Assembly (NCBI GenBank): GCA_902826455.1
Contig: CADEEV010000003.1
Location: 62,001 to 126,000 of the forward strand
DNA length: 64,000 nt
Direction of reading: 5' to 3'
DNA from: an uncultured Acidobacteriota bacterium
Lineage (GTDB): Bacteria; Acidobacteriota; Vicinamibacteria; Fen-336
Numbering within the stretch: the first letter of the stretch is position 1; each line of letters begins with the position of its first letter. A model generated the notes under the pieces. That model did not search any database. It was not told the origin of the DNA and saw nothing but the letters and a program-made list of their open reading frames with translations. Below, piece after piece: positions 385 to 36,217 of the stretch. The position numbers and the translations under genes are program-made.

Positions 385-1247
385 GCGACCACCTCCGGCA
401 CTCCTTCCGCATCGTCGCGGCGGCGGCGCTGTTCTCCACGGCCGGCGCCGTGATCAAGGCGACGACGCTCACGAGCTGGCAGGTCGCGGGCCTGCGGGCG
501 GCGTTCGCGGCCCTCACGGTCTTCGTCCTGCTCCCGGAGACGCGCCGGCACCTGACGCGGCAGGCCGCGGCCGTCGGCGTCGCCTACGCCGCGACCGTGA
601 TCCTGTTCGTCCAGGCCAACAAGCTCACCACCGCGGCCAACGCGATCTACATCCAGTCCACGTCGCCGCTGTACATCCTCCTGCTCGGCCCGTGGCTGCT
701 GAAGGAGAAGATCCGCCGCAGCGACGTCTTCGTGCTGGTGGCGATCGCGGCCGGCGTCGCGCTGTTCTTCGTGGGCCTCGACGCCCCGGTCGAGACGGCC
801 CCCGACCCGTTGCGCGGCAACCTGATCGCCGTCGCGAGCGGCTTCGCGTGCGGCGTGATGATGATCGGCCTGCGCTGGCTCGCCCGCATCGATCGCCTGA
901 GCGCCGCGTCGTCGGTCCTGATCGGCAACGTCCTGGCGGCGGTCTTCTGCCTGCCCTTCGTCATGCCCGTGGGGCCGGTGCGCGTGCTCGACATCGCGCT
1001 CGTGGCGTACCTGGGGATCTTCCAGATCGGCGTCGCCTACTACTTCCTCACGAAGGCCATGACCCACGTGCCGGCGCTCGAGGCCGCGCTGCTGCTGTTC
1101 GTCGAGCCCGTGCTCTCGCCGCTGTGGGCGTGGCTCATCCACGGCGAGACCCCGGGCACCTGGTCGCTGCTGGGCGGCGGTGTGATCCTGGGGGCGACCG
1201 TGGCGAATGCGGCGTTGGGATCGAGGCGTTCGGAAACGAACACCTGA
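381..1247 (+). CDS. EamA/DMT superfamily transporter
   Basis: This 288-residue membrane protein has about ten predicted helices in two EamA repeats. The first half carries FVQANKLTTAANAIYIQSTSP and the second ends LLFVEPVLSPLWAWLIHGE, which is the typical drug/metabolite-transporter repeat ending. It sits in the inner membrane. Family members export amino acids, nucleotides or other metabolites, and the substrate is unknown here. The TTG start at 381 overlaps the stop of the VOC gene by three bases. The frame runs cleanly to TGA with no sign of truncation. Confidence 0.88.
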   Translation: MSDHLRHSFRIVAAAALFSTAGAVIKATTLTSWQVAGLRAAFAALTVFVLLPETRRHLTRQAAAVGVAYAATVILFVQANKLTTAANAIYIQSTSPLYILLLGPWLLKEKIRRSDVFVLVAIAAGVALFFVGLDAPVETAPDPLRGNLIAVASGFACGVMMIGLRWLARIDRLSAASSVLIGNVLAAVFCLPFVMPVGPVRVLDIALVAYLGIFQIGVAYYFLTKAMTHVPALEAALLLFVEPVLSPLWAWLIHGETPGTWSLLGGGVILGATVANAALGSRRSETNT

Positions 1248-1317: not shown

Positions 1318-1340
1318 TGGCACGCCGCGTGGAGTAGCCG
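1318..1340 (+). promoter_or_regulatory. TGGCACG box upstream of the exporter operon (sigma-54 -24-like)
   Basis: The bases TGGCACGCCGCGTGG contain a perfect -24 consensus heptamer followed by GTGG in place of the -12 TTGC. TAGCCG follows at 1335-1340, six bases before the ATG at 1347. The second exporter operon has the same arrangement at 20125-20145, and a related one precedes the GNAT gene at 25974. The missing GC at -12 weakens a straightforward sigma-54 reading. Confidence 0.35.
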
Positions 1341-1346: not shown

Positions 1347-2600
1347 ATGGACATCGCCCGTCCGGACCGTGCTCGTGAGAAGAAGACCCGCCGCCTGATC
1401 TACGGAGGCCTCGGCCTCGCCGCCGTCCTGCTCGTGACGCTCGGCCTGTCGCGCCTCAAGCCGGCCGCCCCCAGCGTCGAGCGGGCGACCGTCTGGATCG
1501 ACACCGTGAAGCGCGGCCCGATGCTGCGCCAGGTGCGCGGCCTCGGGACGCTCGTCCCGGTGGAGATCCGCTGGATCCCGGCGATCAACGAAGCGCGCGT
1601 CGAGCGCATCGTGATCCAGCCCGGCACCGCCGTGAAGGCCAACTCGGTGATCCTCGAGCTCTCGAACCCCAACCTCGAGCTCGCGGCCCTCGAGGCCGAG
1701 TCGCAGCTGCGCGCCGCCGAGGCCCAGTACGTCGAGCTGCGCGTGCGCCTCCAGAGCCAGCGCCTCGACCAGGAGGCGTCCGCCGCCCAGGTGCGCGCGA
1801 GCTACAACGAGGCCCGCCTGCGCGCCCAGGCCGACGCCGAGCTGGCCAAGGCGGGGCTGATCGCCGACATCACCCGGCAGGTCTCGAAGGTCACGGCCGA
1901 GGAGCTCGGCAACCGAAACAGCATCGAGGAGAAGCGCCTCGACATCAGCGGCGAGTCGGTGAAGGCGCAGCTCGCGGTGCAGCAGACCGCGGTCGAGCGC
2001 GCGCGCGCCCTGCTGCGCGTGCGCCGGAACGAGGTCGACGCGCTGCGCCTCAAGGCCGGCATCGACGGCGTGCTGCAGGTGGTCCCGGTCGAGGTGGGCC
2101 AGCGCGTGACGCCCGGCCTCAACCTGGCGCGCGTCGCGCAGCCCGAGAAGCTGAAGGCGGTCATCCGCGTCGCCGAGACCCAGGCGAAGGACGTGATGAT
2201 CGGCCAGAAGGCGTCCATCGACACCCGCAACGGCGTCGTCGCGGGCCACGTGATCCGCGTCGACCCGTCGTCGCAGAACGGCACGGTCGGCGTCGACCTC
2301 GCGATCGACGGTACCCTGCCCAAGGGCGCGCGGCCCGACCTCTCGGTCGACGGCACGATCGAGCTCGAGCGCCTGGAGAACGTGCTGTTCGTGGGCCGGC
2401 CCGCCCAGGGCCAGCCCGAGAGCCTCGTGGGCCTGTTCCGCCTCGAGCCCGACTCGGCCGACGCGAACCGCGTGAAGGTGAAGCTCGGCCGGGCGTCGGT
2501 CAACACCGTCGAGATCGTCGAAGGCCTGAAGGAAGGCGACCAGGTGGTGCTCTCCGACACCTCCGCCTGGGACTCCCACGACCGCATCCGTCTCAACTGA
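1347..2600 (+). CDS. HlyD/MacA-like periplasmic adaptor subunit of an ABC exporter
   Basis: This 417-residue membrane-fusion protein should bridge the inner-membrane ABC exporter to the periplasm or outer membrane. After a charged N-terminus there is one anchor helix at about residues 15-34. A half lipoyl domain follows (about 75-105, IVIQPGTAVKANSVILELSN), then a long Ala/Glu/Arg-rich coiled-coil hairpin (about 110-220) and the returning lipoyl and beta-barrel segments (DGVLQVVPVEVGQRVTPG). The C-terminal membrane-proximal domain ends VVEGLKEGDQVVLSDTSAW, typical of MacA/RND adaptors. It heads an operon with the ATPase (16-base gap) and five permeases. Confidence 0.92.
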   Translation: MDIARPDRAREKKTRRLIYGGLGLAAVLLVTLGLSRLKPAAPSVERATVWIDTVKRGPMLRQVRGLGTLVPVEIRWIPAINEARVERIVIQPGTAVKANSVILELSNPNLELAALEAESQLRAAEAQYVELRVRLQSQRLDQEASAAQVRASYNEARLRAQADAELAKAGLIADITRQVSKVTAEELGNRNSIEEKRLDISGESVKAQLAVQQTAVERARALLRVRRNEVDALRLKAGIDGVLQVVPVEVGQRVTPGLNLARVAQPEKLKAVIRVAETQAKDVMIGQKASIDTRNGVVAGHVIRVDPSSQNGTVGVDLAIDGTLPKGARPDLSVDGTIELERLENVLFVGRPAQGQPESLVGLFRLEPDSADANRVKVKLGRASVNTVEIVEGLKEGDQVVLSDTSAWDSHDRIRLN

Positions 2601-2616
2601 TTCTCCGAGGGGCAGA

Positions 2617-3336
2617 ATGAACGCTTCGAACGACGCGATGATCAAGCTCGAGGGCCTGACCAAGGTCTTCTACACCGACGAGGTCGAGACCCACGCCCTC
2701 GCCGGCATCCACCTCGAGATCCTGCGGGGCGAGTACGTCGCGATCTCCGGCCCGTCGGGCTGCGGCAAGTCGACGCTGCTCTCGATCCTCGGCCTCCTCG
2801 ACTCGCCGTCGAGCGGGACCTACGTCCTCAACAACACGCCGGTGCAGGGCCTCGATCTCTCGCAGCGGGCGCGCATCCGGAACCGCGAGATCGGCTTCAT
2901 CTTCCAGAGCTTCAACCTGATCGGCGACCTCAACGTCTACGAGAACGTCGAGCTGCCCCTCACCTATCGCGGCATGAAGGCGAGCGAGCGCAAGGACCGG
3001 GTCAACGCGGCCCTCGAGCGCGTGGGCATGGCGCACCGCTCGAAGCACCTGCCCTCGCAGCTCTCGGGCGGTCAGCAGCAGCGCGTGGCCGTGGCCCGCG
3101 CCCTGGTCGGCGCCCCCTCGATCCTGCTGGCCGACGAGCCCACCGGGAACCTCGACTCGAAGAACGGCGACGCGGTCATGGACCTGATGCGCGAGCTGCA
3201 CCGCGCCGGCTCGACGATCTGCATGGTGACCCACGACCCGCGCTTCGCGCGCCACGCCGACCGCACGATCCACATCTTCGACGGCCGCGTCGTCGAGGAG
3301 TCGACGGAAGCCGCCGCCGCCCCCGCCCTCGCCTAG
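2617..3336 (+). CDS. MacB/LolD-type ABC transporter ATP-binding protein
   Basis: This 239-residue nucleotide-binding subunit has Walker A GPSGCGKST at residues 45-53, the signature LSGGQQQRVAVARAL from about 149, and Walker B ILLADE followed by PTGNLD from about 169. These are the canonical MacB/LolD/FtsE family features. It would couple ATP hydrolysis to conformational change of MacB-type permeases at the inner membrane. It is the only ATPase in the operon, so it probably serves all five downstream permeases. A GAGGGG Shine-Dalgarno lies 5-10 bases before the ATG. Confidence 0.95.
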   Translation: MNASNDAMIKLEGLTKVFYTDEVETHALAGIHLEILRGEYVAISGPSGCGKSTLLSILGLLDSPSSGTYVLNNTPVQGLDLSQRARIRNREIGFIFQSFNLIGDLNVYENVELPLTYRGMKASERKDRVNAALERVGMAHRSKHLPSQLSGGQQQRVAVARALVGAPSILLADEPTGNLDSKNGDAVMDLMRELHRAGSTICMVTHDPRFARHADRTIHIFDGRVVEESTEAAAAPALA

Positions 3337-3342
3337 CCTCCC

Positions 3343-5790
3343 TTGGAGACCCTGCTCCGGGAACTCGGCCATGCCGCACGCGGGCTCAACCGGAGCCGCG
3401 GCTTCACCGCCGTGGCGGTGCTGACGCTCGCCCTCAGCATCGGCGCCAACACCACGATCTTCACCTGGGCCAGCGCGGTCTTCCTCGACCCGCTGCCGGG
3501 CGTGGCGGACTCGGGCCGCGTGCTCGTCGTGCAGCAGAAGGAGCCGGGCAACAACGAGGGCTACGTCAGCCTCTCGTATCCCGACTACCGCGACTATCGC
3601 GACCGCAACACCACCCTCTCGGGCCTCGCCGTGACCCGCAACGTGATGGTCTCCCTGGAGAGCGACGGCACCCCGCAGCGCCTCTACGGCCAGATCGTCT
3701 CGGGCAACTTCTTCGACGTGCTCGGCGTGCGGGCGAGCCTCGGCCGCACCTTCGCGCCCGAGGACGACCGGGCCCCCGGCGAGTCGGCGGTGCTCGTCAT
3801 CAGCCACGCCTTCTGGCAGCGGCACTTCGCCGGCGACGCGAACGTGGTCGGCCGTGCCGTGCGCCTCAACAAGCAGCCGTTCACGATCGTGGGTATAGCG
3901 CCCCGGGAGTTCCGCGGCTCGGCCCTCGGCATGCGCCTCGACGTCTGGGTGCCCGTGATGATGCAGGCGGTCGTGGAGCCCGGCAGCACGCGCCTCGAGG
4001 AGCGCGGCAACCGCTGGCTCGAAGGCCTGGGACGCCTCCGGCCCGGCGTGTCGCGCGAGACCGCGCGGGCCGAGCTGACGCAGATCGCGGCGCAGATCGG
4101 CGCCGAGCGCAAGACCGAAGCCGGCCGCGGCCGGAGCGTCGGGCTGTTCCCCATCGCGCGCTCGCCCCGCGGCGGCGGCGCCGTGCTGGGCCCGGTGATG
4201 CTCGTGCTCGCCTCCGTCGTGGGCCTGGTGCTGCTGATCGCCTGCGCGAACGTCGCGAACCTGCTGCTGACGCGGGCCGTGGGCCGCGAGCGCGAGATGG
4301 CGGTGCGCCTGTCCCTGGGCGCGCGGCGGCGCGACCTGGTCCGCCAGCTCCTCGTGGAGAGCCTGCTGCTGGCCGCCCTCGGCGGCGGCTTCGGCGTGCT
4401 GCTCGCGTCGTGGGGCGAGCACGCGCTGCAGGCGATGCTGCCCCCCACCGACTATCCGCTCGGCCTCGCGGTCGGCCTCAACGGCCGCGCCCTCGGCTTC
4501 ACCCTCGCGGTGACGACGCTCGCGGGCCTGGTCTTCGGTCTCGTGCCGGCGCTCCAGGCCACGCGCGGCACGACCTCCGGGGCGCTGCGCGAGGGCTCCT
4601 CGGCCGTGGCCGGCGGACGGCGCCGGCAGCGCCTGCGGAACGCCCTCGTCGTGACCCAGGTCGCGGCGTCCGTGCTGCTGCTCGTCACCGCCGGCCTGTT
4701 CCTGCGCAGCCTGGGCAACGTCCGCTCGTTCGATCTCGGCCTCGACCTCAAGGGCGTCGGGCTCGCGTCGGTCGACCTCGTGTCGAGCGGCTACGACTCC
4801 GCCCGGGGCACCGCGTTCTACCGTGAACTGCTCGAGCGCGCCCGGGCCCTTCCCGGCGTCGAGAGCGTCAGCCTCGTGCGTCGCGTCCCGCTCGGCCTCG
4901 GCGGCTCGAGCTCGACGAGCTTCGAGGTCGAAGGCTACGAGGCACCCAAGGACGACCCGGCCTGGGCCTACGTCAACAACGTCGGCCCCGACTTCCTGCG
5001 CACCCTCGGCATCCGCCTCGTCGACGGCCGCGAGTTCGGCCCCGGGGACGACGCGCAGCACCCGGAGGTGATCGTCGTCAACGAGACGATGGCGCGCCGC
5101 TACTGGCAGGGCGGCAAGGCCGTGGGCGGCCGCGTGCGCCTGGGCGACGACTGGGTGAGCGTCGTCGGCATCGCCCGCGACACGCCGTTCACGAGCGTCC
5201 AGGAGCCGCCCGGGCCGACGTTCTACATGCCGATCCTGCAGCGCTACCGTCCCGACGCGACGGTCCTGCTGCGCGCCCACGGCGACCCGGCCTCCCACCA
5301 GGGCGCCCTCGTCGGCGCGATCCACGCCCTCGACCCGTCGCTCGCGGTCTTCGGCTTGCGCAGCCTCGAGGACCACGTGCAGGCCTCGGCGTTCCGGCAG
5401 CGCCTGGGCAGCCAGGTGCTGGGGGCGTTCGGGGTGCTGGGACTGGCCCTCGCGATGCTCGGGCTCTACGGCGTGCTGGCCTTCTCGGTGGCCCAGCGCA
5501 CCCGCGAGATGGGGATCCGCACGGCCCTCGGCGCGAGCGTCGCGACGCTGCTGCGGCAGGTGCTGGGCGAAGGCCTGCGCCTCGCCGTCCTCGGCGTGCT
5601 GCTCGGGACCGGCCTCGCCCTCGCCCTGGGCCGCCTCGTGAGCGGCCTGCTCGTGGGCGTGAGCCCCGTCGATCCCGCGACGTTCGCCGGCACGATCGGC
5701 GCGCTGCTGCTCGCCGCGAGCCTCGCGTGCGCCGTTCCGGCGCGGCGGGCCACCCGCGTCGACCCCGCCGTGGCGCTGCGTCACGAATGA
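3343..5790 (+). CDS. ADOP-type ABC transporter permease 1 (MacB/FtsX)
   Basis: This 815-residue permease follows the acidobacterial duplicated layout. It has an N-terminal helix (FTAVAVLTLALSIGANTTIF), a large periplasmic MacB-core domain, three FtsX helices around LIACANVANLLL, a linking helix, a second periplasmic domain and a C-terminal FtsX triplet ending PARRATRVDPAVALRHE. About eight membrane helices are expected, twice the usual MacB complement. It lacks a fused ATPase, so it must borrow the upstream subunit. The TTG start is six bases after the ATPase stop and agrees with the N-termini of the paralogues. Confidence 0.92.
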   Translation: METLLRELGHAARGLNRSRGFTAVAVLTLALSIGANTTIFTWASAVFLDPLPGVADSGRVLVVQQKEPGNNEGYVSLSYPDYRDYRDRNTTLSGLAVTRNVMVSLESDGTPQRLYGQIVSGNFFDVLGVRASLGRTFAPEDDRAPGESAVLVISHAFWQRHFAGDANVVGRAVRLNKQPFTIVGIAPREFRGSALGMRLDVWVPVMMQAVVEPGSTRLEERGNRWLEGLGRLRPGVSRETARAELTQIAAQIGAERKTEAGRGRSVGLFPIARSPRGGGAVLGPVMLVLASVVGLVLLIACANVANLLLTRAVGREREMAVRLSLGARRRDLVRQLLVESLLLAALGGGFGVLLASWGEHALQAMLPPTDYPLGLAVGLNGRALGFTLAVTTLAGLVFGLVPALQATRGTTSGALREGSSAVAGGRRRQRLRNALVVTQVAASVLLLVTAGLFLRSLGNVRSFDLGLDLKGVGLASVDLVSSGYDSARGTAFYRELLERARALPGVESVSLVRRVPLGLGGSSSTSFEVEGYEAPKDDPAWAYVNNVGPDFLRTLGIRLVDGREFGPGDDAQHPEVIVVNETMARRYWQGGKAVGGRVRLGDDWVSVVGIARDTPFTSVQEPPGPTFYMPILQRYRPDATVLLRAHGDPASHQGALVGAIHALDPSLAVFGLRSLEDHVQASAFRQRLGSQVLGAFGVLGLALAMLGLYGVLAFSVAQRTREMGIRTALGASVATLLRQVLGEGLRLAVLGVLLGTGLALALGRLVSGLLVGVSPVDPATFAGTIGALLLAASLACAVPARRATRVDPAVALRHE

Positions 5791-5800
5791 AGGAGTGGAA

Positions 5801-8308
5801 ATGGAAGGCTTGATCGGCGACCTGCGCTACGCGGTCCGGCAGCTCGCGAAGAGCCCCCTCTTCACCGGCATCGTGGTGCTGACCCTGGCCCTCGGCATCG
5901 GCGCCAACGCGGCGATCTTCTCGCTCATGGACCAGATCCTGTTCCGGAAGCTGCCGGTCCAGGATCCCGATCGCCTCGTGATGCTGAACGCGCCCGGACC
6001 GAGCCAGGGCTCGCGCCACCAGGCGAGCAATATCGAGCCGATCTCCGAGCCGATGTTCGCGGATTTCCGCGATCACGCGGAGCCGTTCGCGGGCGTCATG
6101 GCCTACTTCCCCGCCGACCTCCACCTGTCGTCAGGCGGCGAGACCGAGCGGGCCTCGGGCGCGCTCGTGTCCGGAACGTACTTCGACGTTCTCGGGGTGA
6201 AGCCGGCCGTGGGTCGCCTGCTGAGCCCGGCCGACGACAAGACCCCGGGCGCCCACCCGGTGGCGGTGCTGGCCTACGGATACTGGCAGCGGCGCTTCGC
6301 CTCGGACCCCGGCATCGTCGGGAAGAGCGTGCTCGTGAACGGCCAGCCCATGACCGTGATCGGCGTCTCGGCCCGCGGCTTCAACGGCGTCGCGGTGGGC
6401 AGCACGACGGACGTCTTCGTGCCGCTCATGATGCAGGAGCAGGTCGTCCCCATCTACAAGATGCTCGGTCAGCGCCGCACGGCGTGGCTCACCGCGTTCG
6501 CGCGGCTCAAGCCCGGCGTCACGCCGGAGCAGGCGAAGGCGGCGGTGAACGTCCAGTACCGCCAGATCCTGACCGAAGAGCTGGTGCAGATGACGACCAA
6601 GTCCGAGAGCTTCCGCAAGCGCTTCGTCGAGAAGACCCTCGAGCTGCTCCCGGGCGCGCGGGGCCAGTCGGATCTGCGCACCGACTCGCAGACGACGTTC
6701 TTCGTGCTCATGGGCATGGTGGGGCTCGTGCTCCTGATCGCCTGCGCGAACGTCGCGAACCTGCTCCTGGCGCGGGCCTCGACGCGGCAACGCGAGGTGG
6801 CCGTACGGCTCGCCATGGGCGCGCGCCGGGCCGTGCTGGTGCGCCAGTTCCTCGCCGAGAGCGTCCTGCTCTCGCTCCTCGGCGGCGTGCTCGGCCTGCT
6901 CGTCTCGTCCTGGGCGGGAAGCCTGATCCTGCGCGCGCTCCCGAGCGAGTCGACGGCGGCGGCGCTCTCGTCGGACCCGGACCTGCGCGTGGCGGCGTTC
7001 GCGTTCGTCGTGGCCCTCGTGACGGGATTCGTGTTCGGGCTCGTGCCGGCGATCCAGGCGACCCGCCCCGACCTCTTCACCTCGCTGCGCACCGAGGCGG
7101 GCTCGGTGATGGGCGCCGCCGGCCCCCTGCGCTTCCGCAAGGCGCTCGTCGTGGCCCAGGTCGCGCTCTCGTTGCTGCTGCTGATCGGGGCCGGACTCTT
7201 CACCCGGAGCCTTCACAACCTGCGCAGCCTGGATCCTGGCTTCAAGCCGGAGAACCTGCTCGCGTTCAGCGTGAACCCGTCCCTCGAGGGCTACGACGAC
7301 CCCCGGCGCGTGGCGCTCCTCGGCCGCATCCTCGACGACGTGGCCGCAGAGCCGGGCATCGCCTCGGCGTCCTTCGCCGAGATCGCGCTCATGGCGAACA
7401 GCGCGTCGAGCAGCACGGTCGTGGTCGACGGCTACGAGTCGAAGGACGGGGAGAACATGAACCCGAACTTCAACACGGTCGCGCCCGACTTCTTCCGCAC
7501 CCTCGGGATCCCGCTGCTGGCCGGCCGCGACTTCGGCACCCAGGACGGCACGACCGCGCCCAAGGTCGCGATCGTGAACCAGTCCTTCGTCCGCTACTTC
7601 TACAAGGGCAAGCCCGAGTCCGACGCGCTCGGGCGCACCTTCAAGCTCGGCCGGGACGAGAAGGACCAGATCACGATCGTCGGTGTCGTCCAGGACGGCA
7701 AGGCTGCGAACCTCACCGACGAGACGCGCCGCTTCGTCTACCTGCCCTACCCGCAGGTCCAGAACCTGGGCGACATGACGTACTACGTGCGGACGGCGGC
7801 CGACCTCACGCCCCTGGCGGCCCGGATCCGCGCCCTCGTCCGCACGGCCGACACCGGCCTCCCGGTCACCGACATGAAGACGATGAAGGCCCAGATCGGG
7901 GAGTCGCTGTTCGTCGAGCGCATGACGGCCGCACTCTCCGCGGCCTTCGGGTTCCTGGCCACGGCCCTGGCGGCCCTCGGCCTGTATGGCGTGATGTCCT
8001 TCGCGGTGGCGCGCCGCACCCGCGAGATCGGCATCCGCATGGCGCTGGGCGCCGAGCGCCGCAAGGTCCTCGCCCTCGTGATGCTCGAGGTCGGGACCCT
8101 GGCCGGCATCGGCGTCGCCCTCGGCCTGCCGGCGGCCTGGGCCTTCGGCCGCGCCATCAGCGCCCAGCTCTTCGGCCTGTCCCCCCACGATCCCGTGACC
8201 GCGCTGACTGCGACGGCACTGCTGTTGGGAGTCGCTCTCACCGCCGGATTCATTCCCGCCCGAAGGGCGAGCCGCGTCGACCCCATGGTCGCGCTGCGCT
8301 ACGAATAG
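5801..8308 (+). CDS. ADOP-type ABC transporter permease 2 (MacB/FtsX)
   Basis: This 835-residue paralogue has the same two MacB-core and two FtsX modules. It starts MEGLIGDLRYAVRQLAKSPL, shows GLVLLIACANVANLLLARAS in the first FtsX module and ends PARRASRVDPMVALRYE. I prefer the ATG at 5801 over the GTG at 5795, because the AAGGAG at 5790-5795 overlaps the preceding stop and is correctly spaced (five bases) only for the ATG. It is the longest of the five permeases because of an insertion in the first periplasmic domain (around ELVQMTTKSESFRKRFVEK). Confidence 0.92.
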   Translation: MEGLIGDLRYAVRQLAKSPLFTGIVVLTLALGIGANAAIFSLMDQILFRKLPVQDPDRLVMLNAPGPSQGSRHQASNIEPISEPMFADFRDHAEPFAGVMAYFPADLHLSSGGETERASGALVSGTYFDVLGVKPAVGRLLSPADDKTPGAHPVAVLAYGYWQRRFASDPGIVGKSVLVNGQPMTVIGVSARGFNGVAVGSTTDVFVPLMMQEQVVPIYKMLGQRRTAWLTAFARLKPGVTPEQAKAAVNVQYRQILTEELVQMTTKSESFRKRFVEKTLELLPGARGQSDLRTDSQTTFFVLMGMVGLVLLIACANVANLLLARASTRQREVAVRLAMGARRAVLVRQFLAESVLLSLLGGVLGLLVSSWAGSLILRALPSESTAAALSSDPDLRVAAFAFVVALVTGFVFGLVPAIQATRPDLFTSLRTEAGSVMGAAGPLRFRKALVVAQVALSLLLLIGAGLFTRSLHNLRSLDPGFKPENLLAFSVNPSLEGYDDPRRVALLGRILDDVAAEPGIASASFAEIALMANSASSSTVVVDGYESKDGENMNPNFNTVAPDFFRTLGIPLLAGRDFGTQDGTTAPKVAIVNQSFVRYFYKGKPESDALGRTFKLGRDEKDQITIVGVVQDGKAANLTDETRRFVYLPYPQVQNLGDMTYYVRTAADLTPLAARIRALVRTADTGLPVTDMKTMKAQIGESLFVERMTAALSAAFGFLATALAALGLYGVMSFAVARRTREIGIRMALGAERRKVLALVMLEVGTLAGIGVALGLPAAWAFGRAISAQLFGLSPHDPVTALTATALLLGVALTAGFIPARRASRVDPMVALRYE

Positions 8309-8323
8309 AAGAAGGAGAACGAG

Positions 8324-8533
8324 ATGGAGTTCACGAGCCCCGAGACGATGAGCGTCGACACCAGCCGGCCGCTCAAGGACCTCGTCGCCGACTACGAGCG
8401 CCAGCTGATCACCGAGGCCCTGACGGCCACGGGCGGCAACCAGCGGCGCGCCGCCGCGGCCCTGGGCGTCCTGCCGACGACGCTCCACGAGAAGCTGAAG
8501 CGCCTCGGCCTGCACCTGAAGCCTCTCGCCTAG
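8324..8533 (+). CDS. Stand-alone Fis-type helix-turn-helix protein (69 aa)
   Basis: This 69-residue protein consists almost only of a Fis/NtrC C-terminal DNA-binding fold. An amphipathic helix LKDLVADYERQLITEALTAT is followed by the GGNQRRAAAALGVLPTTLHEKLKRLGL helix-turn-helix. It has no receiver, AAA+ or ligand domain. It resembles the last 45 residues of the two NtrC-type regulators in this window. A strong Shine-Dalgarno (AAGGAG at 8312-8317, six bases from the ATG) contrasts with the weak or absent sites of its exporter neighbours, so it may be made in larger amounts. It probably binds DNA as a dimer. The target is unknown, but control of its own exporter operon is a natural guess. Confidence 0.85.
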   Translation: MEFTSPETMSVDTSRPLKDLVADYERQLITEALTATGGNQRRAAAALGVLPTTLHEKLKRLGLHLKPLA

Positions 8534-8549
8534 CGTCCGAGGCGCGGCC

Positions 8550-10985
8550 ATGGACGCCCTGCTGCAGGACCTGCGCTACGCCGTCAGGATGCTGGCGCGC
8601 AGCCCAGGCTTCACGGTCGCCGCCGTGCTCTCCCTCGCCCTCGGCGTCGGCGCCAACACGGCCATCTTCAGCCTCGTCAACGCGGCGCTGTTCGCGCCGC
8701 TGCCGGTGCGCGAGCCCGAGGGCCTGGTGCGGCTCTACACGAGCGACTCGCGCAACCCCGGATACAGCGGCACGTCGCTGCCGAACTTCCGCGACTACGC
8801 GGAGCAGGCACGCGGCTCGATCCAGGGTCTCGCGGCCTACGACTGGGTGCCCCTGAGCCTGGTGAACGGGGGCGAGCCCGAGCTCGTCTTCGGCCAGATC
8901 GTCACGGCCAACTACTTCGACGTGCTGGGCGTCCGGCCCGTGCTCGGCCGCAGCTTCACCCCGGTCGAGGATCAGCGCCCCGAGCCGGTGGCGGTCCTGA
9001 GCCACGCACTCTGGAAGCGCCGCTTCGCCAGCGATCCCGGCGTCGTGGGCCGCAGCGTCGACATGAATGGCCTCTCGTTCACCGTCGTCGGCGTGGCCCC
9101 GCCGCAGTTCACGGGCCTCGACGTCGGTGTGCGGCCGGAGCTCTGGGTGCCGATGGGGCTCCACGCCCAGGTGATCCCCGACGACGCCGAGGTGTCCGAC
9201 GACCGGCGCACCCTCCAGTTCAGCGTGGTCGGGCGGCTGGCGGGCGGGGTGAGCGTCGAGCAGGCGCTGGCCACGGTGAAGACGGTGGGCGAACGCCTGG
9301 CGGTCGCGTATCCGGCCGAGAACAAGGATCGCGGTGGCGTGCTGTCGCCCCTGGCGACGGCAACCCTCGACCCGGAGGCTCGGTCCACCGCGCGGCTGGC
9401 CGCCGCGGCCTTGATGACGATCGTGGGGCTCGTCCTGGTGATCGCCTGCGCCAACGTCGCGAACCTGCTGCTCGGTCGCGCGAGCGCGCGACGCCGAGAG
9501 GTGAGCGTGCGGCTGTCCCTGGGCGCGTCACGCGGGCGGCTGGTGCGGCAGCTCCTCACGGAAAGCGCCCTGCTCTCCGTGAGCGCCGCCGCCCTCGGGC
9601 TCGTCGTCGCGAGCTGGGCCCATTCGCTGCTGCTGCGGCTGCGTCCCGAGTCGCCGATCGCCATCGACCTCGGCCGCGGCCTCGACCTGCGCGTGCTGGG
9701 CTTCGCGCTGCTCCTGGCCGTCCTCGCCGGGCTGCTGTTCGGCCTCGCTCCCGCCCTGCAGTCGACCCACGGCGACCTCGCTTCGGACCTGAAGGCGCGC
9801 GGCGCCGAGAGCGGGGGCCGGGGCGCGGGACGCATGCGCAACGGCCTGGTCGTCGCCCAGGTGGCGCTCTCCCTCGTGGCGCTCGCGGGCGCCAGCCTGT
9901 TCGCGCGCAGCCTGCAGAACGCCCGCCGCATCGAGCCCGGCTTCGACGTCGGTCGCCTCGCCGTGCTGAGCTTCAATCTCGGCGCCCAGGGCTACACGCC
10001 GGCGCGCGGCGCCAGCTTCTACCGCGAGCTGATCGAGCGCGCCTCGCGCCTGCCCGGCGTCGAGTCGGCCGCCCTCGCGACCCACGAGGCGCTGTTCGGC
10101 GGCGGGTTCGGGCGCACGGTCTTCCCCGAAGGCGTGACGGGCGACAGCGTCGGCACCTTCGTCCTCGTGAACACCGTGAGCCCGCACTACCTCGCGACGG
10201 CCGGCACGCCGCTCCTGCGCGGGCGCGACATCGAGGCGATCGACCGGGAAGGCGGCGCCCGCGTGGCGGTGGTCAACGAGGCCATGGCGAAGCGCTACTG
10301 GCCGGGCGCGGACCCGATCGGCCGACGCTTCCACTTCTTCGGCACGGAGCCCTACGAGGTCGTCGGCGTCGCGAAGGACAGCAAGCTGTGGACCCTCGAC
10401 GAAGAGCCACGAGCCTGCGCCTACGTGGCCCTGGCCCAGAACTACAGCCCTGCGGCGACGCTCTACGTCCGCAGCGAGCGCCCCTCGGCCCAGCTCGCCG
10501 CGCTGCGAGCCGAGATCCAGCGCCTCGACGAGCGGCTTCCGGTCTTCGGCGTGGGCTCGTTCCGCGAGCGCGTCGAGGCCTCGCTCTGGGCGCCGCGCAT
10601 GGCCGCCGGGCTGCTCGGGGCGTTCTCGGGCCTGGCCCTGACGATCGCCAGCATCGGCCTGTACGGCGTCATGGCGTTCAGCGTCTCGCGCCGCACCCGG
10701 GAGATCGGGCTCCGGATGGCCCTCGGGGCGGCTCCGCGCGACGTGATGCGCCTCGTGCTCGGCAGCGGCCTGAGCCTCGCCCTCGCCGGCATCGCCCTGG
10801 GATCGCTGGCGGCCCTCGGCCTGTCGCGGGCGATCTCCGGCCTGCTCTACGGCGTGCCCTCGGTCGATGCCGTCACCTTCGGCGTCGTGCCGCTGGTCCT
10901 GGTGGCCGCCGCCAGCGTCGCGTGCTACGTGCCCGCGCGTCGCGCGATGAAGGTGGATCCCGTCGTGGCCCTGAGGGCCGAGTGA
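8550..10985 (+). CDS. ADOP-type ABC transporter permease 3 (MacB/FtsX)
   Basis: This 811-residue permease begins MDALLQDLRYAVRMLARSPG, has VLVIACANVANLLLGRASARRRE in the first FtsX module and ends PARRAMKVDPVVALRAE. The two periplasmic MacB-core domains and about eight helices are intact. It lies 16 bases after the small Fis-type gene. Its TGA overlaps the GTG start of permease 4 (GTGA), which suggests coupled translation of permeases 3 and 4. Confidence 0.92.
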   Translation: MDALLQDLRYAVRMLARSPGFTVAAVLSLALGVGANTAIFSLVNAALFAPLPVREPEGLVRLYTSDSRNPGYSGTSLPNFRDYAEQARGSIQGLAAYDWVPLSLVNGGEPELVFGQIVTANYFDVLGVRPVLGRSFTPVEDQRPEPVAVLSHALWKRRFASDPGVVGRSVDMNGLSFTVVGVAPPQFTGLDVGVRPELWVPMGLHAQVIPDDAEVSDDRRTLQFSVVGRLAGGVSVEQALATVKTVGERLAVAYPAENKDRGGVLSPLATATLDPEARSTARLAAAALMTIVGLVLVIACANVANLLLGRASARRREVSVRLSLGASRGRLVRQLLTESALLSVSAAALGLVVASWAHSLLLRLRPESPIAIDLGRGLDLRVLGFALLLAVLAGLLFGLAPALQSTHGDLASDLKARGAESGGRGAGRMRNGLVVAQVALSLVALAGASLFARSLQNARRIEPGFDVGRLAVLSFNLGAQGYTPARGASFYRELIERASRLPGVESAALATHEALFGGGFGRTVFPEGVTGDSVGTFVLVNTVSPHYLATAGTPLLRGRDIEAIDREGGARVAVVNEAMAKRYWPGADPIGRRFHFFGTEPYEVVGVAKDSKLWTLDEEPRACAYVALAQNYSPAATLYVRSERPSAQLAALRAEIQRLDERLPVFGVGSFRERVEASLWAPRMAAGLLGAFSGLALTIASIGLYGVMAFSVSRRTREIGLRMALGAAPRDVMRLVLGSGLSLALAGIALGSLAALGLSRAISGLLYGVPSVDAVTFGVVPLVLVAAASVACYVPARRAMKVDPVVALRAE

Positions 10986-13399
10986 TCGACGCGCTGCTGC
11001 AGGACCTCCGCTACAGCCTCCGGCAGATCGCGCGGGCCCCCGCGTTCGCGGGCGCGATCGTCGTGACGCTGGCCCTCGGGATCGGGGTCAACACCGCGAT
11101 CTTCAGCGTCGTCAACGGCGTGCTGCTGCGGCCGCTGCCGCTGCCCGAGCCGGACCGGCTCGCCTTCATCACCCGCGAGGGCGACGTGTCGATCCCCGAC
11201 GGCGTCGACTGGCGCGCCGCGAGCCCGAGCTTCGAGTCGATCGCGCTCATGTTGCGGGCCTGGGACTTCAGCGTCTCGGGGGACGGGGACCCGCTGCGGC
11301 TGCAGGGCGTCGTGACCGAGCCCGAGTACTTCGCGACGCTCCAGGTGGCGCCCCTCGCCGGCCGCGTCTTCACGGCCGCCGACAACCGCGTGGGCGGGCC
11401 CTGGGTCGCTCTCATCAGCGAGGGCCTGTGGAAGAGCCGCTTCGGCGGCGCTCCGGACATCGTCGGCCGCACCATCACGCTCTCCGACAATCCCACGACC
11501 GTGATCGGCGTGATGCCGGCCGGTTTCGACGTGTTCCGCGACGGCGTCGACCTGTGGATGCCGGTGGCGCTCGCGACGCCCTGGGCGATGTCCGAGCGCG
11601 GCACGAACAACTTCGACGCGATCGGCCGGCTCAAGCCGGGCGCGACGCTCGCGACCGCCAGCGCCGAGCTGCGCACGATCTGCGAACGCCTCGAGAAGGA
11701 GTTCCCGAAGACCAACCAGGACAAGATCGTGGAGCCCTTGCCCATGCTCGAGTTCATGGTGGGACGGGTGCGGCGCGCGCTGTTCGTGCTGCTGGGCGCG
11801 GTGGGCCTGGTGCTCGTGATCTCGAGTCTCAACGTGGCCGGGCTGCTCCTGGCGCGCTCCGCGTCGCGCCAGGACGAGTTCGCGCTGCGCCTCGCGGTGG
11901 GCGCCGGTCGCGGCCGCATCCTGCGCCAGGTCCTGACCGAGGGCCTGTGCCTGTCCTTGCTCGGCGGGGTGCTGGCCGCGGGGGTCGCGACGTGGGGCGA
12001 GAGCGCGCTCGTGGCGCTCGCCCCGGAATCGCTGCCGCGCACCTGGGAGGTGTCGATCGACGGCCGCGTGCTCGCCTTTGCCCTCGGGCTGAGCCTCGTC
12101 ACCGGCCTGCTGTTCAGCCTCGCCCCGGCGTTACAGGTGCTGCGCGCGCAGCCGGCGCCCTTCCTCTCGGGGTCCGGGAAGGGCAGCGGCGGCGGCTCGA
12201 CGCACCATCGCTTCCTCGGGGGCCTGGCGGCGGTGGAGATCGCCCTCGCCTTCGTGCTCGTCATCGGCTCGGGCCTGCTGGGCCGCACGTTCCTGAAGCT
12301 GCAGAGCGTGCCGCTGGGCTTCGAGCCGCGCAACGTCATCCTGGGAAACGTCGTGCTGCCCGAGTCCCGCTACGGCACGCGCGGCCTGCAGACCCCGTTC
12401 TTCCGCGAGGCCGTGGACCGCCTGGCGCAGGCGCCGGGCATCGAGAGCGCCGCCTACGTGCTCACGCCCCCGCTCTACCCGCGCGGCGGCGTCGGCGGCG
12501 CGATCCTGGTGGAGGGCGAGGCCGAGCCCGTCGACGGCCGCTCGCGCGGCGCCCGACTGCGCGCCGTCATGGGCGACTACTTCCGCACGCTGGGCGTGCC
12601 GATCCTCGCGGGCCGCGCGTTCTCGGCCGCGGACGACCATGGCCCGCCGGTCGCGATCGTGAACCAGGCGTTCGCGGCGGGCTTCTTCCCCGGCCGCGAT
12701 CCGCTCGGCCAGCGCATCGCCTGGCGCGATCACAACGACGGCACGCCGGTGTTCATGACGATCGTCGGCGTCGCCTCGGACATGAAGGGCGTCTCGATCG
12801 ACGGCGACGACCAGCGGGCCGTGTACATGCCCTACGCCCAGCGCCTCGTGGACTGGCAGCGCTGGGGCACGCTCGTGGCCCGCACGAAGTCCGACCCGCG
12901 CGGCTTCGCCCGCGTCCTCGAGCAGGCCGTGTGGTCGGTGGATCCCACGATCCCGCTCTCCGAGGTCGGCGCGATGGAGGACAAGGTCGGGGCGGCTCTG
13001 GGCGAGCAGCGCTTCAGCGCCCTGGCACTGTCGGCCTTCGGCCTCGTCGCGCTGCTCACGGCGCTCCAGGGCATCTACGCGGTGCTCGCCTACGCGGTCG
13101 TCCAGCGCCGGCGCGAGCTCGGGGTGCGCCTCGCACTGGGCGCCACGCAGTCGGACCTGCTGCGTCTCGTGCTGCGCCGCGGGGTCACGCTCACGGCCGC
13201 GGGCCTCGCGCTCGGCCTCGCCGCGGCCCTCGCCGGGAGCCGCGTGCTGACCGGCCTGCTGTTCGAGATCGATCCCCTCGACCCCGTCACCTACGTGGTC
13301 GTGTTCGTCGGCCTGGGCCTCACGGCCCTCGCCGCCAGCCTGATCCCCGCGCGGCGGGCCGCCCGCGTCGACCCGATCCGCGCCCTGCGCTACGACTAG
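10982..13399 (+). CDS. ADOP-type ABC transporter permease 4 (MacB/FtsX), divergent
   Basis: This 805-residue permease starts at the GTG overlapping the previous stop, giving MIDALLQDLRYSLRQIARAP in register with its paralogues. The longer frame open upstream is inside permease 3 and not credible. In the first FtsX module the usual IACANVANLLL is replaced by ISSLNVAGLLL, and the N-terminal periplasmic domain is shorter. It is therefore the most divergent of the five and may have a distinct partner or substrate. The C-terminus PARRAARVDPIRALRYD is conserved. Confidence 0.9.
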   Translation: MIDALLQDLRYSLRQIARAPAFAGAIVVTLALGIGVNTAIFSVVNGVLLRPLPLPEPDRLAFITREGDVSIPDGVDWRAASPSFESIALMLRAWDFSVSGDGDPLRLQGVVTEPEYFATLQVAPLAGRVFTAADNRVGGPWVALISEGLWKSRFGGAPDIVGRTITLSDNPTTVIGVMPAGFDVFRDGVDLWMPVALATPWAMSERGTNNFDAIGRLKPGATLATASAELRTICERLEKEFPKTNQDKIVEPLPMLEFMVGRVRRALFVLLGAVGLVLVISSLNVAGLLLARSASRQDEFALRLAVGAGRGRILRQVLTEGLCLSLLGGVLAAGVATWGESALVALAPESLPRTWEVSIDGRVLAFALGLSLVTGLLFSLAPALQVLRAQPAPFLSGSGKGSGGGSTHHRFLGGLAAVEIALAFVLVIGSGLLGRTFLKLQSVPLGFEPRNVILGNVVLPESRYGTRGLQTPFFREAVDRLAQAPGIESAAYVLTPPLYPRGGVGGAILVEGEAEPVDGRSRGARLRAVMGDYFRTLGVPILAGRAFSAADDHGPPVAIVNQAFAAGFFPGRDPLGQRIAWRDHNDGTPVFMTIVGVASDMKGVSIDGDDQRAVYMPYAQRLVDWQRWGTLVARTKSDPRGFARVLEQAVWSVDPTIPLSEVGAMEDKVGAALGEQRFSALALSAFGLVALLTALQGIYAVLAYAVVQRRRELGVRLALGATQSDLLRLVLRRGVTLTAAGLALGLAAALAGSRVLTGLLFEIDPLDPVTYVVVFVGLGLTALAASLIPARRAARVDPIRALRYD

Positions 13400-13406
13400 A
13401 GGCTCC

Positions 13407-15839
13407 ATGTTCAGCTCCGACTTCCGGCAGGACGTGCGGTTCGCGTTGCGCCAGCTCGCCAAGAGCCGCGCGTTCACCCTGGTCGCCGTCACGACCCTCG
13501 CCCTCGGGATCGGGGCGTCGGCCGCGATCTTCTCGGTCGTCGACGCCGTCCTGATCCACCCGCTTCCCTACGCGAGCCCGGACCAGCTCGTGCTGCTCTG
13601 GCAGCACGACCTGCGCACGGGCGCCCCGCTCGTCGAGGTCTCGTACGACGAGTTCAAGGAGTGGCGCCAGCAGGCGAAGGGCTTCGACGGCCTCGCGGCC
13701 CTGACGTCGACGAACTTCCGCGTGAACCTCACCGGGCGCGGAGAGCCGCAGCAGGTCGAGGGCGCCCTCGTGTCGGCCCAGTTCTTCTCGCTTCTGGGCG
13801 TGACGCCGCTGGCCGGCCGGAACTTCCTCGCGGAGGACGACAAGGCCGGTGCCGCGCCGGTGGCCCTGATGAGCCACGGCTTCTGGAAGCGCCAGTTCGG
13901 TTCGGACGCGAGCCTCGTGGGATCCGCCCTGACCCTCGACGGCACCGCCTGCACGATCGTCGGGATCCTGCCGCCCGACGTGGCGCTCCCGAAGGGCGCC
14001 GACCTGTGGTTCACGGCCGGCTCGGGCCTCGACACGCCCGACGCCTCGAAGTACCGCATCCTCAAGGTCCTCGGCCGCATGGATTCCGCCACGACGCTGC
14101 CGACCGCGCAGGCCGGGATGGACGTGCTCGCGAAGCGCATGGAGAGCATCAACCCCAAGGCCAACGCCGGCCTCGGCATCCGGATCGCGAAGCTCACCGA
14201 CGAGATCTACGGCGACACGCGGCCGGCCCTGTTGCTGCTACTCGCGGCCGTGGGCTTCGTCGTGCTGATCGCCTGCGCCAACGTCGCGAACCTGCTCCTG
14301 GCGCGGGGCGCCTCCCGCGAGAGCGAGCTCGCCCTGCGCGGCGCTCTCGGCGCCGGGCGCGGACGCATCGTCCGGCAGCTCCTCACCGAGAGCGTCCTGC
14401 TCGCGTCGATCGGCGGCGTCCTGGGCGTCGGCCTGGCAACGATCGCGCTCCGCACCCTCGCGGCGCAGGTGCCCGAGGGCGTGCCGCGCCTCGAGCACGT
14501 GGCGATCGACGCGCGCGTGCTCGGCTTCGCGCTGCTGCTGGCCCTCGTGACTTCCGTCCTGTTCGGCCTCGCCCCGGCGCTGCGGGCCTCCCAGACCGAC
14601 CCGGCCGACACGCTCCGCGAGGGCACGCTGCGCGCCTCCGACAACCGCCGCGGCCGCACGCTGCGCAGCCTGCTGGTCGTGAGCGAGATCGCCATGAGCC
14701 TGATGCTCCTGGCCGGCGCGGGCCTGATGGCGCGCAGCCTCAACCACCTGGTGGAGCTCGACCCCGGGTTCGATCCGAAGAACGTCCTCACCGCGCGCAT
14801 CAGCCTGGCGGACGCCAAGTACCCGGACCAGAAGGCGCGGACCGCGTTCTTCACGGCGCTCCTCGAGCGCATGAACGCCCTGCCCGGCGTCGAGTCGGCG
14901 GACATCGTGCTGCTGCGGCCGCTCGTGGACCCGATCGGCTGGGACTACGACTTCACGATCGAAGGCCAGACCGCCTCGGAGCAGGAGAAGAACCCGCCGA
15001 GCAACTACGAAGCGGTCAGCGCCGGCTACTTCAAGACGATGCGCATCCCGCTGCTCAAGGGCCGCACCTTCGAGTCCACGGACGGCGAGAACGGCCAGCA
15101 GGTCGTCGTGGTGACGAAGGCGCTCGCCGAGCGCTTCTGGCCCGGCCGCGATCCGCTGGGCCAGCGCATGAAGTTCGGCGGGGCCGACAACGAGAAGGCC
15201 CCGTGGCACACGGTCATCGGCGTCGTGGGCGACGCACGCTACCGCGGCTGGACGAACCCCTGGCTCGACGCCTACGTCCCCTACCAGCAGTGGAGCTTCG
15301 GCCGCATGGACCTCGTGCTGCGCACGAGCGTCGATCCCCTGAGCGTGGTGCCAGCGCTACGGCAAGCGGTGCTCGCCGGAGACTCCGAGCTGCCTCTCGC
15401 CGACGTCACCACGATGGAACGCGCGGTGTCGGCGGCGGTCGCCGGACCGCGCTTCACGGCGCTCCTGCTCAGCATCTTCGCGGGCCTCGCCGTGGTCATG
15501 GCCGTAGTCGGAATCTACGGCGTCATGGCGAGCTCGATGGCGCGCCGCACCCGCGAGATCGGCGTGCGCATGGCGATGGGCGCCCGGCCCAAGGATGTGC
15601 TCGCGATGGTGCTGCGCCAGGTGGCGAGCCTGACCGCTGCCGGCGTTGTCGTTGGATTGGTGCTAGCGCTCGCGTCGAATCGTGCCGTCGCGAGCCTGCT
15701 CTATGGCGTGAGCTCGACCGACCCGGTCACGTTCGCGGCGACTGCCGCCGGCCTCGCGGCCGTCGCAATCGGCGCGGGGTTGTTCGCAGCACGGCGCGCG
15801 ACGCGGATCGACCCGATGGTGGCGCTCCGAGATCAGTAG
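13407..15839 (+). CDS. ADOP-type ABC transporter permease 5 (MacB/FtsX)
   Basis: This 810-residue permease is the last of the operon, seven bases after permease 4. It begins MFSSDFRQDVRFALRQLAKS, contains VLIACANVANLLLARGASRESE and ends AARRATRIDPMVALRDQ. Domain order is as in its paralogues: helix, MacB core, FtsX triplet, helix, MacB core, FtsX triplet. The operon ends here. The converging DUF2442 gene stops only three bases away, and no hairpin plus T-run is visible between them. Confidence 0.92.
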   Translation: MFSSDFRQDVRFALRQLAKSRAFTLVAVTTLALGIGASAAIFSVVDAVLIHPLPYASPDQLVLLWQHDLRTGAPLVEVSYDEFKEWRQQAKGFDGLAALTSTNFRVNLTGRGEPQQVEGALVSAQFFSLLGVTPLAGRNFLAEDDKAGAAPVALMSHGFWKRQFGSDASLVGSALTLDGTACTIVGILPPDVALPKGADLWFTAGSGLDTPDASKYRILKVLGRMDSATTLPTAQAGMDVLAKRMESINPKANAGLGIRIAKLTDEIYGDTRPALLLLLAAVGFVVLIACANVANLLLARGASRESELALRGALGAGRGRIVRQLLTESVLLASIGGVLGVGLATIALRTLAAQVPEGVPRLEHVAIDARVLGFALLLALVTSVLFGLAPALRASQTDPADTLREGTLRASDNRRGRTLRSLLVVSEIAMSLMLLAGAGLMARSLNHLVELDPGFDPKNVLTARISLADAKYPDQKARTAFFTALLERMNALPGVESADIVLLRPLVDPIGWDYDFTIEGQTASEQEKNPPSNYEAVSAGYFKTMRIPLLKGRTFESTDGENGQQVVVVTKALAERFWPGRDPLGQRMKFGGADNEKAPWHTVIGVVGDARYRGWTNPWLDAYVPYQQWSFGRMDLVLRTSVDPLSVVPALRQAVLAGDSELPLADVTTMERAVSAAVAGPRFTALLLSIFAGLAVVMAVVGIYGVMASSMARRTREIGVRMAMGARPKDVLAMVLRQVASLTAAGVVVGLVLALASNRAVASLLYGVSSTDPVTFAATAAGLAAVAIGAGLFAARRATRIDPMVALRDQ

Positions 15840-16370: not shown

Positions 16371-16790
16371 CTATTCCCCTCCAAGCGACGCCAGGCCGAA
16401 GGCCACGACGATCACCGCGATGCAGACCGTGGGCGGCGGCGGGAAGTGAAGCGCTGAGATCGCGAACAGTAAGGCAAAGGCCGCGGCGTTCACGCGCGCC
16501 ACGGCCGTGAGCGTCGCTCCGCCGGCACGAAGCGCGACGACGCCGAGCGCCACGACCCACGCCATCATCAACGTGAAGCTGTGACTGAACCCGTCGAGGA
16601 TCTGCTCGAACGTCAGGCGCGGGCCGCCGGCGCCGAAGTCGATCGCCGTCGTCGCGACCAGCTTGAAGAGCGTGGCCTCGGTGTCGTTGGCCGCAGGCGG
16701 GTTTGGTTGCATCGAAGCGATGCCGTGCAGGGCTCCCGTGATCCCGGCGACCCACAGGCCGACCTTGAAGGCGACGCGCTGGCGCTTCAT
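16371..16790 (-). CDS. Small four-helix integral membrane protein of unknown function
   Basis: This 139-residue hydrophobic protein has four likely membrane helices: WVAGITGALHGIAS, FTLMMAWVVALGVVAL, NAAAFALLFAISA and VCIAVIVVAFGLASL. Between helices 1 and 2 lies a polar stretch with PRLTFEQILDGFSHSF. I do not recognise a characterised family. Its ATG directly follows the TAG of the 185-residue membrane protein, so it is the last gene of the sigma-factor operon. A role linked to that sigma factor is inferred from position only. Confidence 0.7.
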   Translation of the reverse strand: MKRQRVAFKVGLWVAGITGALHGIASMQPNPPAANDTEATLFKLVATTAIDFGAGGPRLTFEQILDGFSHSFTLMMAWVVALGVVALRAGGATLTAVARVNAAAFALLFAISALHFPPPPTVCIAVIVVAFGLASLGGE

Positions 16791-19914: not shown

Positions 19915-19954
19915 GTTCTGGCCGGTAGATGCAGGGCGGAAGGGATTCTCGCCG

Positions 19955-19976: not shown

Positions 19977-20124
19977 AAATACTTGTCGGACAGTGGGTTG
20001 GCTCGCGATTCCTTGTTCGAGGCTGGGACTCTGCGTCCCACGAACGGACAGGCCGGACGGTCCTGTGGAACGCGTCATCGGGCCAACGTCCGGGAGACAC
20101 AGGCTTTCGCCGGAGTGGCGTCGG

Positions 20125-20145
20125 TGGCACGGGCCTTGGTAGCCT
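20125..20145 (+). promoter_or_regulatory. TGGCACG box (sigma-54-like) and TAGCCT hexamer before exporter operon 2
   Basis: TGGCACGGGCCTTGGTAGCCT contains a perfect sigma-54 -24 heptamer. At the correct ten-base spacing from GG there is TTGG in place of TTGC. TAGCCT ends seven bases before the ATG at 20153. If this is a sigma-54 promoter, the transcript would begin only about two bases before the ATG. The same TGGCACG-N5-TGG-TAGCC layout precedes the other exporter operon at 1318. Confidence 0.45.
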
Positions 20146-20152
20146 CAGCCCC

Positions 20153-20815
20153 ATGATCGAGCTCCGCAACGTCGAGAGATGGCACGAACAGGGCGGCCAG
20201 CGCGCCTACGTCCTGCGCCGCATCACGCTCACCATCAAGGAGGGCGAGTTCGTCTCCATCATGGGACCGTCGGGCGCGGGCAAGTCCACGCTGTTGCACG
20301 TCCTCGGCATGCACGACGGGGAGTTCTCGGGCGAGTTCGATTTCCTGGGCGAGCCCATCCACAAGCTGAGCCGCAAGGCGCGCCTCGAGGTGCAGAAGAA
20401 GAACATCGGCTTCGTGTTCCAGAGCTACCACCTGCTCGACGATCTCACGGTCTACGAGAACCTCGAGATCCCGCTGTCCTATCGCGACGTGAAGAAGAGC
20501 GAGCGCCAGGGCATCGTGGCCGACGTCCTCGACCGCTTCCACATAGTGGGCAAGAAGGACCTGTACCCGAACCAGCTCTCGGGCGGGCAGCAGCAGCTCG
20601 TGGCCGTGGCGCGGGCGCTGGTCGCGAAGCCCAAGCTGATCCTGGCCGACGAGCCGACGGGCAACCTGCACTCCGACCAGGGCCGCGAGATCATGGAGCT
20701 GTTCCGGACCCTCAACGAGGCCGGCACCACGATCGTCCAGGTGACCCACTCCGAGACCAACGCGACCTACGGCAACCGCATCGTGAAGCTGCGCGACGGC
20801 TGGCTCGCCGACTAG
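20153..20815 (+). CDS. MacB-type ABC transporter ATP-binding protein with altered signature
   Basis: This 220-residue ATPase has an intact Walker A (GPSGAGKST, residues 38-46), Q-loop ([12 protein letters not shown]) and Walker B (ILADE). Two positions differ from the MacB consensus. The signature reads [15 protein letters not shown] (Leu for Arg, from residue 142) and the D-loop reads PTGNLH (His173 for Asp). Both may be features of a subgroup of acidobacterial ATPases rather than damage. It would power the permease encoded one base downstream, and it is the first gene of the exporter/two-component operon. Confidence 0.93.
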
Positions 20816-20816
20816 G

Positions 20817-23240: not shown

Positions 23241-23242
23241 GA

Positions 23243-23268: not shown

Positions 23269-23269
23269 C

Positions 23270-24621
<1,352 letters not shown>

Positions 24622-24625
<4 letters not shown>

Positions 24626-34876: not shown

Positions 34877-36213
<1,337 letters not shown>

Positions 36214-36217
<4 letters not shown>

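Follow-up and report, generated by a model that had tools for sequence, protein, structure and literature searches.

Stand-alone Fis-type DNA-binding domains are an already known kind of protein, as in Fis of E. coli and NinH of lambda. E. coli Fis is a nucleoid-associated protein of 98 amino acids. It is thought to derive from the tail of NtrC (Morett and Bork 1998, as cited in PMC7166090), and its residue R85 makes the only critical base contact (PMC4784862). Lambda NinH has 68 amino acids and forms a dimer that binds and bends DNA; seven of the eight DNA contacts of Fis are kept in NinH, and its dimerization part follows the helix-turn-helix (PMC7166090). In FleQ of Pseudomonas, a full REC-AAA+ regulator, an RR pair in the C-terminal helix-turn-helix is believed to recognize the FleQ box at its ends (PMC10723142).

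Here we compare with these systems a small protein, termed mini-Fis, that is encoded within an exporter operon of an uncultured Acidobacteriota bacterium. The window is the whole stretch of DNA that was analyzed, 64,000 nucleotides.

The mini-Fis gene

8308..8323, + strand: ribosome-binding site region (AAGGAG) of the mini-Fis gene
8324..8533, + strand: mini-Fis gene, 69 amino acids, predicted helices at residues 17-35, 40-47 and 51-61
34039-34743: GAF-Fis protein, a comparison tail in the window
34877-36217: NtrC-type protein with a Fis-type tail, a comparison tail in the window

Translation of positions 8324-8533 from ATG to TAG gives 69 amino acids, and the coding score by codon usage was positive. 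The Pfam model HTH_8 matched residues 22-61 (E = 1.5e-12, 47.4 bits against a curated cutoff of 22). The protein consists almost only of this Fis-type domain, leaving no space for a sensory or an AAA+ domain. The flanking genes encode ADOP permeases (TIGR03434, E<=1e-270), and the gene lies 15 bp from permease 2 and 16 bp from permease 3. Translation, domain match and neighbors thus agree with the initial annotation, which had described a 69-residue DNA-binding-domain protein between permeases 2 and 3 that has no sensory or activation domain. Its three further Fis-type tails in the window, at 23270, 34877 and 34039, are all real as well. The claim that the gene has the best Shine-Dalgarno sequence of the operon needs correction: the duplex of AAGGAG (-9.7 kcal/mol) ranks second, just below that of permease 2 when the latter is read from the ATG at 5801 (-10.3 kcal/mol).

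Lacking the AAA+ sigma-54 activation domain, mini-Fis is not an NtrC-type enhancer-binding protein. It also falls far below the cutoff of the NCBIfam equivalog for the Fis nucleoid protein, NF001659 (26.1 bits against 99).

The exporter system and its promoters

1347..2600, + strand: membrane fusion protein (MFP, HlyD type)
2617..3336, + strand: ABC ATPase 1, assigned by position and 45% identity to ABC ATPase 2, not by a Pfam scan
3343..5790, + strand: ADOP permease 1
5801..8308, + strand: ADOP permease 2
8550..10985, + strand: ADOP permease 3
10982..13399, + strand: ADOP permease 4
13407..15839, + strand: ADOP permease 5
20153..20815, + strand: ABC ATPase 2 (ABC2), 78-80% identical to the ABC gene adjoining mini-Fis in genus g7
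20817..23240, + strand: ADOP-like permease 6 (MacB_PCD + FtsX)
23270..24625, + strand: NtrCb, the NtrC-type response regulator of the exporter system; its orthologue in the g7 mini-Fis cluster is 82-83% identical
24622..25959, + strand: HKb, the histidine kinase of the exporter system
1216..1244, + strand: enhancer-like element of P1 (TGGGAY-N6-RTYCSR plus CGRACACC), conserved and aligned in 8 genomes
1318..1332, + strand: sigma-54 -24/-12-like promoter P1 (TGGCACGCCGCGTGG)
20024..20050, + strand: enhancer-like element of P2 (TGGGACTCTGCGTCCCACGAACGGACA), conserved
20125..20139, + strand: sigma-54 -24/-12-like promoter P2 (TGGCACGGGCCTTGG)

The mini-Fis operon comprises the genes for the MFP, ABC ATPase 1 and five ADOP permeases. 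The ABC2, NtrC and kinase genes are contiguous with the exporter cluster in genus g7 and in G012 (genus g8), where they are 66-83% identical to the window genes at 20153, 23270 and 24622. Judging from this contiguity, the two blocks of the window, 1347-15839 and 20153-25959, are most likely one exporter system split by minus-strand genes at 16371-19851. These intervening genes, one of which encodes an AHSA1-type protein, separate halves that adjoin each other in related genera.

A conserved enhancer-like element and a sigma-54-like TGGCAC...TTG promoter precede the MFP gene in eight genomes and the ABC2 gene in three. The regions 1248-1346 and 19915-20152, which the initial annotation had named as candidate binding regions, do contain sigma-54-like sites, and conserved enhancer-like elements lie within these regions or immediately adjacent. 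The pattern TGGCACGNNNNNTGG matches the 64-kb window only at 1318 and 20125, two sites against an expected 0.12; since it was chosen after the sites had been seen, this count is support and not an independent test. A fixed-consensus enhancer search of the window found P2 only and performed no better than chance, so the enhancer claim for P1 and P2 is based on the alignments across genomes. In g7, a sigma-54-like site lies immediately upstream of mini-Fis. The element GTCCCATGACCGGAC persists in G004, a genome with the exporter but no mini-Fis; this fits binding by NtrC rather than by mini-Fis, and NtrCb presumably binds the conserved element.

Mini-Fis in the exporter clusters of relatives

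Orthologues of the window MFP and ABC genes were traced through the family genomes, and the gene clusters around them were then read. An orthologous exporter cluster with mini-Fis was present in 7 of 14 genomes (one in g1, two in g4, three in g7 and one in g10), at varying positions. The window copy lies between ADOP permeases 2 and 3, and the copy of G010 follows two ADOP genes. Mini-Fis follows the ABC gene in G003, lies between the ABC gene and an ADOP gene in G009, and in the three g7 genomes stands between a TonB-type receptor gene and the ABC2-NtrC-kinase part. The loci of G003, G010 and G009 reach contig ends, and gene order was read up to there. G002 has one copy in a related cluster, flanked by an ADOP gene and ABC-NtrC-kinase genes; a second copy lies ahead of an NtrC-kinase pair in a different MFP-ABC-permease-permease cluster. 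No cluster-linked mini-Fis was found in the two g8 genomes or in G004, though the exporter is present. Other genera thus also have the small gene in their orthologous ADOP exporter cluster, as a check suggested with the initial annotation had asked. A single origin of all exporter-linked copies was neither shown nor rejected (AU test, P = 0.13), and the same holds for a single origin of all solitary copies.

Distribution and conservation of the family

The genome itself encodes two more stand-alone copies, at C8:5443-5655 (70 amino acids) and C8:13722-13928 (68 amino acids). A family profile matched at E<=1e-12 in 12 of 14 genomes of the same GTDB family; in one of these 12, G008, the matching segment is a longer regulator's tail, not a stand-alone gene. 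Most genomes of this family have one or more stand-alone copies, and copies also occur in the second (sister) family of the order. Named database records come mostly from metagenome-assembled genomes (MAGs) of Vicinamibacteria and other Acidobacteriota. A typical mini-Fis also occurs on a contig labeled Chloroflexi (L090); it comes from the same sample series (14_1009_16_40cm) as Acidobacteria MAGs and is therefore probably misbinned.

The copies are about 50-110 amino acids long with variable ends and share the core LKxLVxxYERQLIxxALxAxGGNQRRAAAALGxLPTTLHEKMKRLGL, with the signature YERxLI...GNQRRAA..LG.LPTTLHEK(M/L)KRLGL. The helix-turn-helix is the most conserved part and its recognition helix is nearly invariant; the dimerization-helix segment LKxLVxxYERxLI is conserved in most copies. 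The window copy is a stand-alone gene, carries LPTTLHEK(M/L)KRLG and groups with the other copies. The dN/dS ratio was 0.07-0.50 over nine pairs of orthologues and paralogues, and the family is under purifying selection. Mini-Fis is therefore a conserved family in one order of Vicinamibacteria (Acidobacteriota) and not a strain oddity; the lack of conservation beyond this strain that would have spoken against the initial annotation was not observed, as conservation extends across genera and two families.

Three longer proteins of G005 combine a degenerate Fis-like stretch with an intact mini-Fis-type domain behind it (L078:6745-7383 and L078:2398-3144, both minus strand, and L075:5923-6624, minus strand).

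Ancestry

In a tree of 66 rows, a branch with support 98/81 set all 36 mini-Fis copies apart, and the copies were nested among full-length tails of the PTTLxE(K/M) type from Acidobacteriota. Support for the mini-Fis clade was only 82/69 in a smaller tree, the short domain limiting what a tree can support. In the smaller tree, AU tests rejected grouping mini-Fis either with E. coli Fis (P = 0.016) or with the tail of the exporter's NtrC at 23270 (P = 0.023); given the long branches and few columns of these trees, which were read with no root inferred, such results carry moderate weight. The tail had been called NtrC-like and a tree with NtrC tails proposed; the copies do fall among enhancer-binding-protein tails, apart from that of the exporter's own NtrC. 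The family probably arose by a single detachment of the tail of a PTTLxEK (FleQ-like) enhancer-binding protein, with subsequent copying to several loci.

Within the same genome, the full-length protein whose tail resembles mini-Fis most closely is a PTTL-type NtrC at G000:C3:206972. Its gene (L085:4746-7132) is preceded by a kinase gene and followed by a DUF4388 gene. In other Acidobacteriota families, small frames of 99-199 amino acids have a C-terminal Fis domain, in many cases with a helix of the TTLNEK type (L201-L209). Two such frames are neighbors in L202, and the tested frames of L201-L209 fall outside the mini-Fis clade.

An origin from a phage or plasmid was considered and rejected, no clear phage link having been found. 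Viral contigs had no mini-Fis match, the phage search returned one weak match, and the plasmid matches were below 60% identity and annotated as sigma-54 regulators or unannotated.

Solitary copies and an ECF-type promoter

Most other mini-Fis copies lie outside ADOP operons. The neighbors of these solitary copies encode CstA, an aminotransferase, beta-lactamase-type proteins, peptidase M4, dehydrogenase E1, aldehyde dehydrogenase, PilZ, outer-membrane proteins and TonB-type proteins. In L040, L045, L058 and L066, which represent several genera, the solitary gene is convergent with a receiver-DUF4388 gene, the 3' ends being close, and the upstream genes differ.

The motif AACC-N16-CGTC, which we take to be the form of an ECF-sigma promoter, precedes solitary copies in ten relatives and the copy at C8:5443 of the genome itself, with differing neighbors.

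G000:C8:5327-5353 (L009): ECF-sigma-type promoter before a solitary mini-Fis gene, AACC-N16-CGTC
L040, L043, L045, L046, L049, L050, L058: same ECF-type site upstream
L066, L067, L070, L068, L071, L073, L059: same ECF-type site upstream

With four copies of the second family included, the motif occurred in 15 of 37 upstream regions against an expected 0.44, a count that is not fully independent of discovery because the motif was first seen in an alignment. The spacing control is independent: with any other spacing between 10 and 22, AACC and CGTC were paired in only 0-1 upstream regions. No ECF-type promoter was found before the window copy.

A search of the same genome with AACCT-N15-CGTCTNA yielded seven sites, and the reversed control yielded none. 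The sites at L219:936 and L220:4062 closely precede genes for an ADOP permease and a DUF4097 protein, suggesting an envelope-type regulon, and a further one is in the region before an ExbD-type operon.

Upstream regions of mini-Fis genes were also scanned for a shared palindromic operator (half-sites of 4 and 5 bases, spacers of 2-11) against 116 control upstream regions, and none passed. The 8-mer TCCATTGT was present in 7 of 28 regions and in 0 of 116 controls, which may be an effect of multiple testing. A neighboring 8-mer, CCATTGTC, had the same counts (7/28 and 0/116); one or the other precedes mini-Fis in L061, L063, L052, L062, L064, L069, L077, L051 and L058.

Fold and DNA contacts

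A single-sequence AlphaFold model of mini-Fis had a mean pLDDT of 79, with helices at residues 17-35, 40-47 and 51-61. Its top structural matches were E. coli Fis and the DNA-binding domain of NtrC4 (probability 1.00, Foldseek E values of 0.016 and weaker), and the best sequence match among solved chains was the FleQ tail (E = 1.6e-11). Compared with E. coli Fis, mini-Fis retains the contact residues N73 and T87 and has P, L, H and E in place of R85, N84, R89 and K90, respectively. The position of Arg85 is Pro51 in mini-Fis and is nearly invariant across the family. The RR pair of FleQ corresponds to LP, and nearly every contact position differs between the recognition helices of mini-Fis (LPTTLHEK) and NtrCb (SRSALYRR). 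With these contact residues replaced, mini-Fis is expected to have a DNA specificity distinct from those of Fis, FleQ and NtrCb.

Proposed role and alternatives

The reading that we favor, with a probability of roughly 0.55, is that the window mini-Fis is an accessory homodimeric DNA-binding regulator that is cotranscribed with the exporter, acts at sites of its own and belongs to a family derived from PTTL-type tails. The exporter genes and mini-Fis would form one transcript from a sigma-54 promoter, most likely driven by NtrCb and HKb. Since the dimerizing helix and the helix-turn-helix are kept and the ATPase is absent, mini-Fis should act passively and as a homodimer. It would bind, and perhaps bend, its own DNA sites, modulating transcription as a repressor or architectural helper and leaving the NtrCb sites to NtrCb. 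Feedback or cross-talk of the exporter switch would be its most plausible role. As most copies lie outside exporter operons, this role may be incidental, and the family as such is not a dedicated exporter feedback device.

The initial annotation proposed that mini-Fis occupies or bends the enhancers of the NtrC at 23270 and so damps exporter synthesis. The cluster does have an NtrC-type regulator with a kinase, and enhancer-like elements and sigma-54-like promoters lie in or beside both regions. However, simple blocking of enhancers is not supported, given the mismatch of the recognition helices and the persistence of the conserved element in G004, and the AU test argues against joining mini-Fis with that NtrC tail; we regard this mechanism as quite unlikely. 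It is also doubtful that mini-Fis acts in a dominant-negative manner, forming mixed dimers with a full-length protein (NtrCb or the PTTL-type NtrC) that would then be kept off the DNA. The conserved dimerization segment and the similar tail of the PTTL-type NtrC in the same genome would suit such pairing, but conservation is highest in the helix-turn-helix, and the nearly invariant recognition helix suggests selection on DNA contact by mini-Fis itself.

A general Fis-like nucleoid-associated protein in several paralogues, whose genomic place means nothing for the neighboring genes, would agree with several copies per genome in unrelated settings and with solitary copies that keep the ECF-type promoter as their neighbors change. 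We consider this improbable in view of the repeated presence in the exporter cluster at varying positions, the second exporter/NtrC cluster in G002 and the proline in place of the critical Arg85 of Fis (PMC4784862). The gene is short and encodes a tail only, as would the remnant of a truncated NtrC gene in decay, but a single clade across two families, purifying selection, a start codon of its own and a strong ribosome-binding site make decay hardly credible.

For the family as a whole, we tentatively suggest that a PTTL-type tail was freed once in this Acidobacteriota order and multiplied into locus-specific copies, of which some are driven by an ECF sigma factor and others by sigma-54. Through a new DNA recognition code, the family may thereby tie exporter control to envelope stress.

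Comparison with known systems

Neither the mini-Fis family nor its PTTL recognition type or promoter logic appears to be described in the sources searched; with the terms tried, the literature search returned nothing on ADOP regulation or on stand-alone Fis domains in Acidobacteriota. Sigma-54 promoters, an NtrC/kinase pair and mini-Fis together offer a concrete regulatory scheme for ADOP exporters, the control of which appears little studied.

Like E. coli Fis, mini-Fis is a stand-alone Fis-type helix-turn-helix with the same predicted fold. Unlike Fis, it has no N-terminal beta-hairpin region and occurs as several paralogues per genome. In size and design, as a lone Fis-type helix-turn-helix, it resembles NinH, whereas its putative dimerization helix precedes the helix-turn-helix and its contacts differ. 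The C-terminal helix-turn-helix of FleQ has TTLxEKM in common with mini-Fis. The same recognition-helix type is found in the PTTL-type NtrC regulators of Acidobacteriota (such as G000:C3:206972, L065 and L072), which are its nearest full-length kin in the trees but possess AAA+ and usually receiver domains. Mini-Fis looks like a separate run of the birth of a Fis-type protein, from NtrC tail to free protein, in another phylum. With several paralogues in varied settings, it could allow the path from activator tail to free protein to be followed comparatively.
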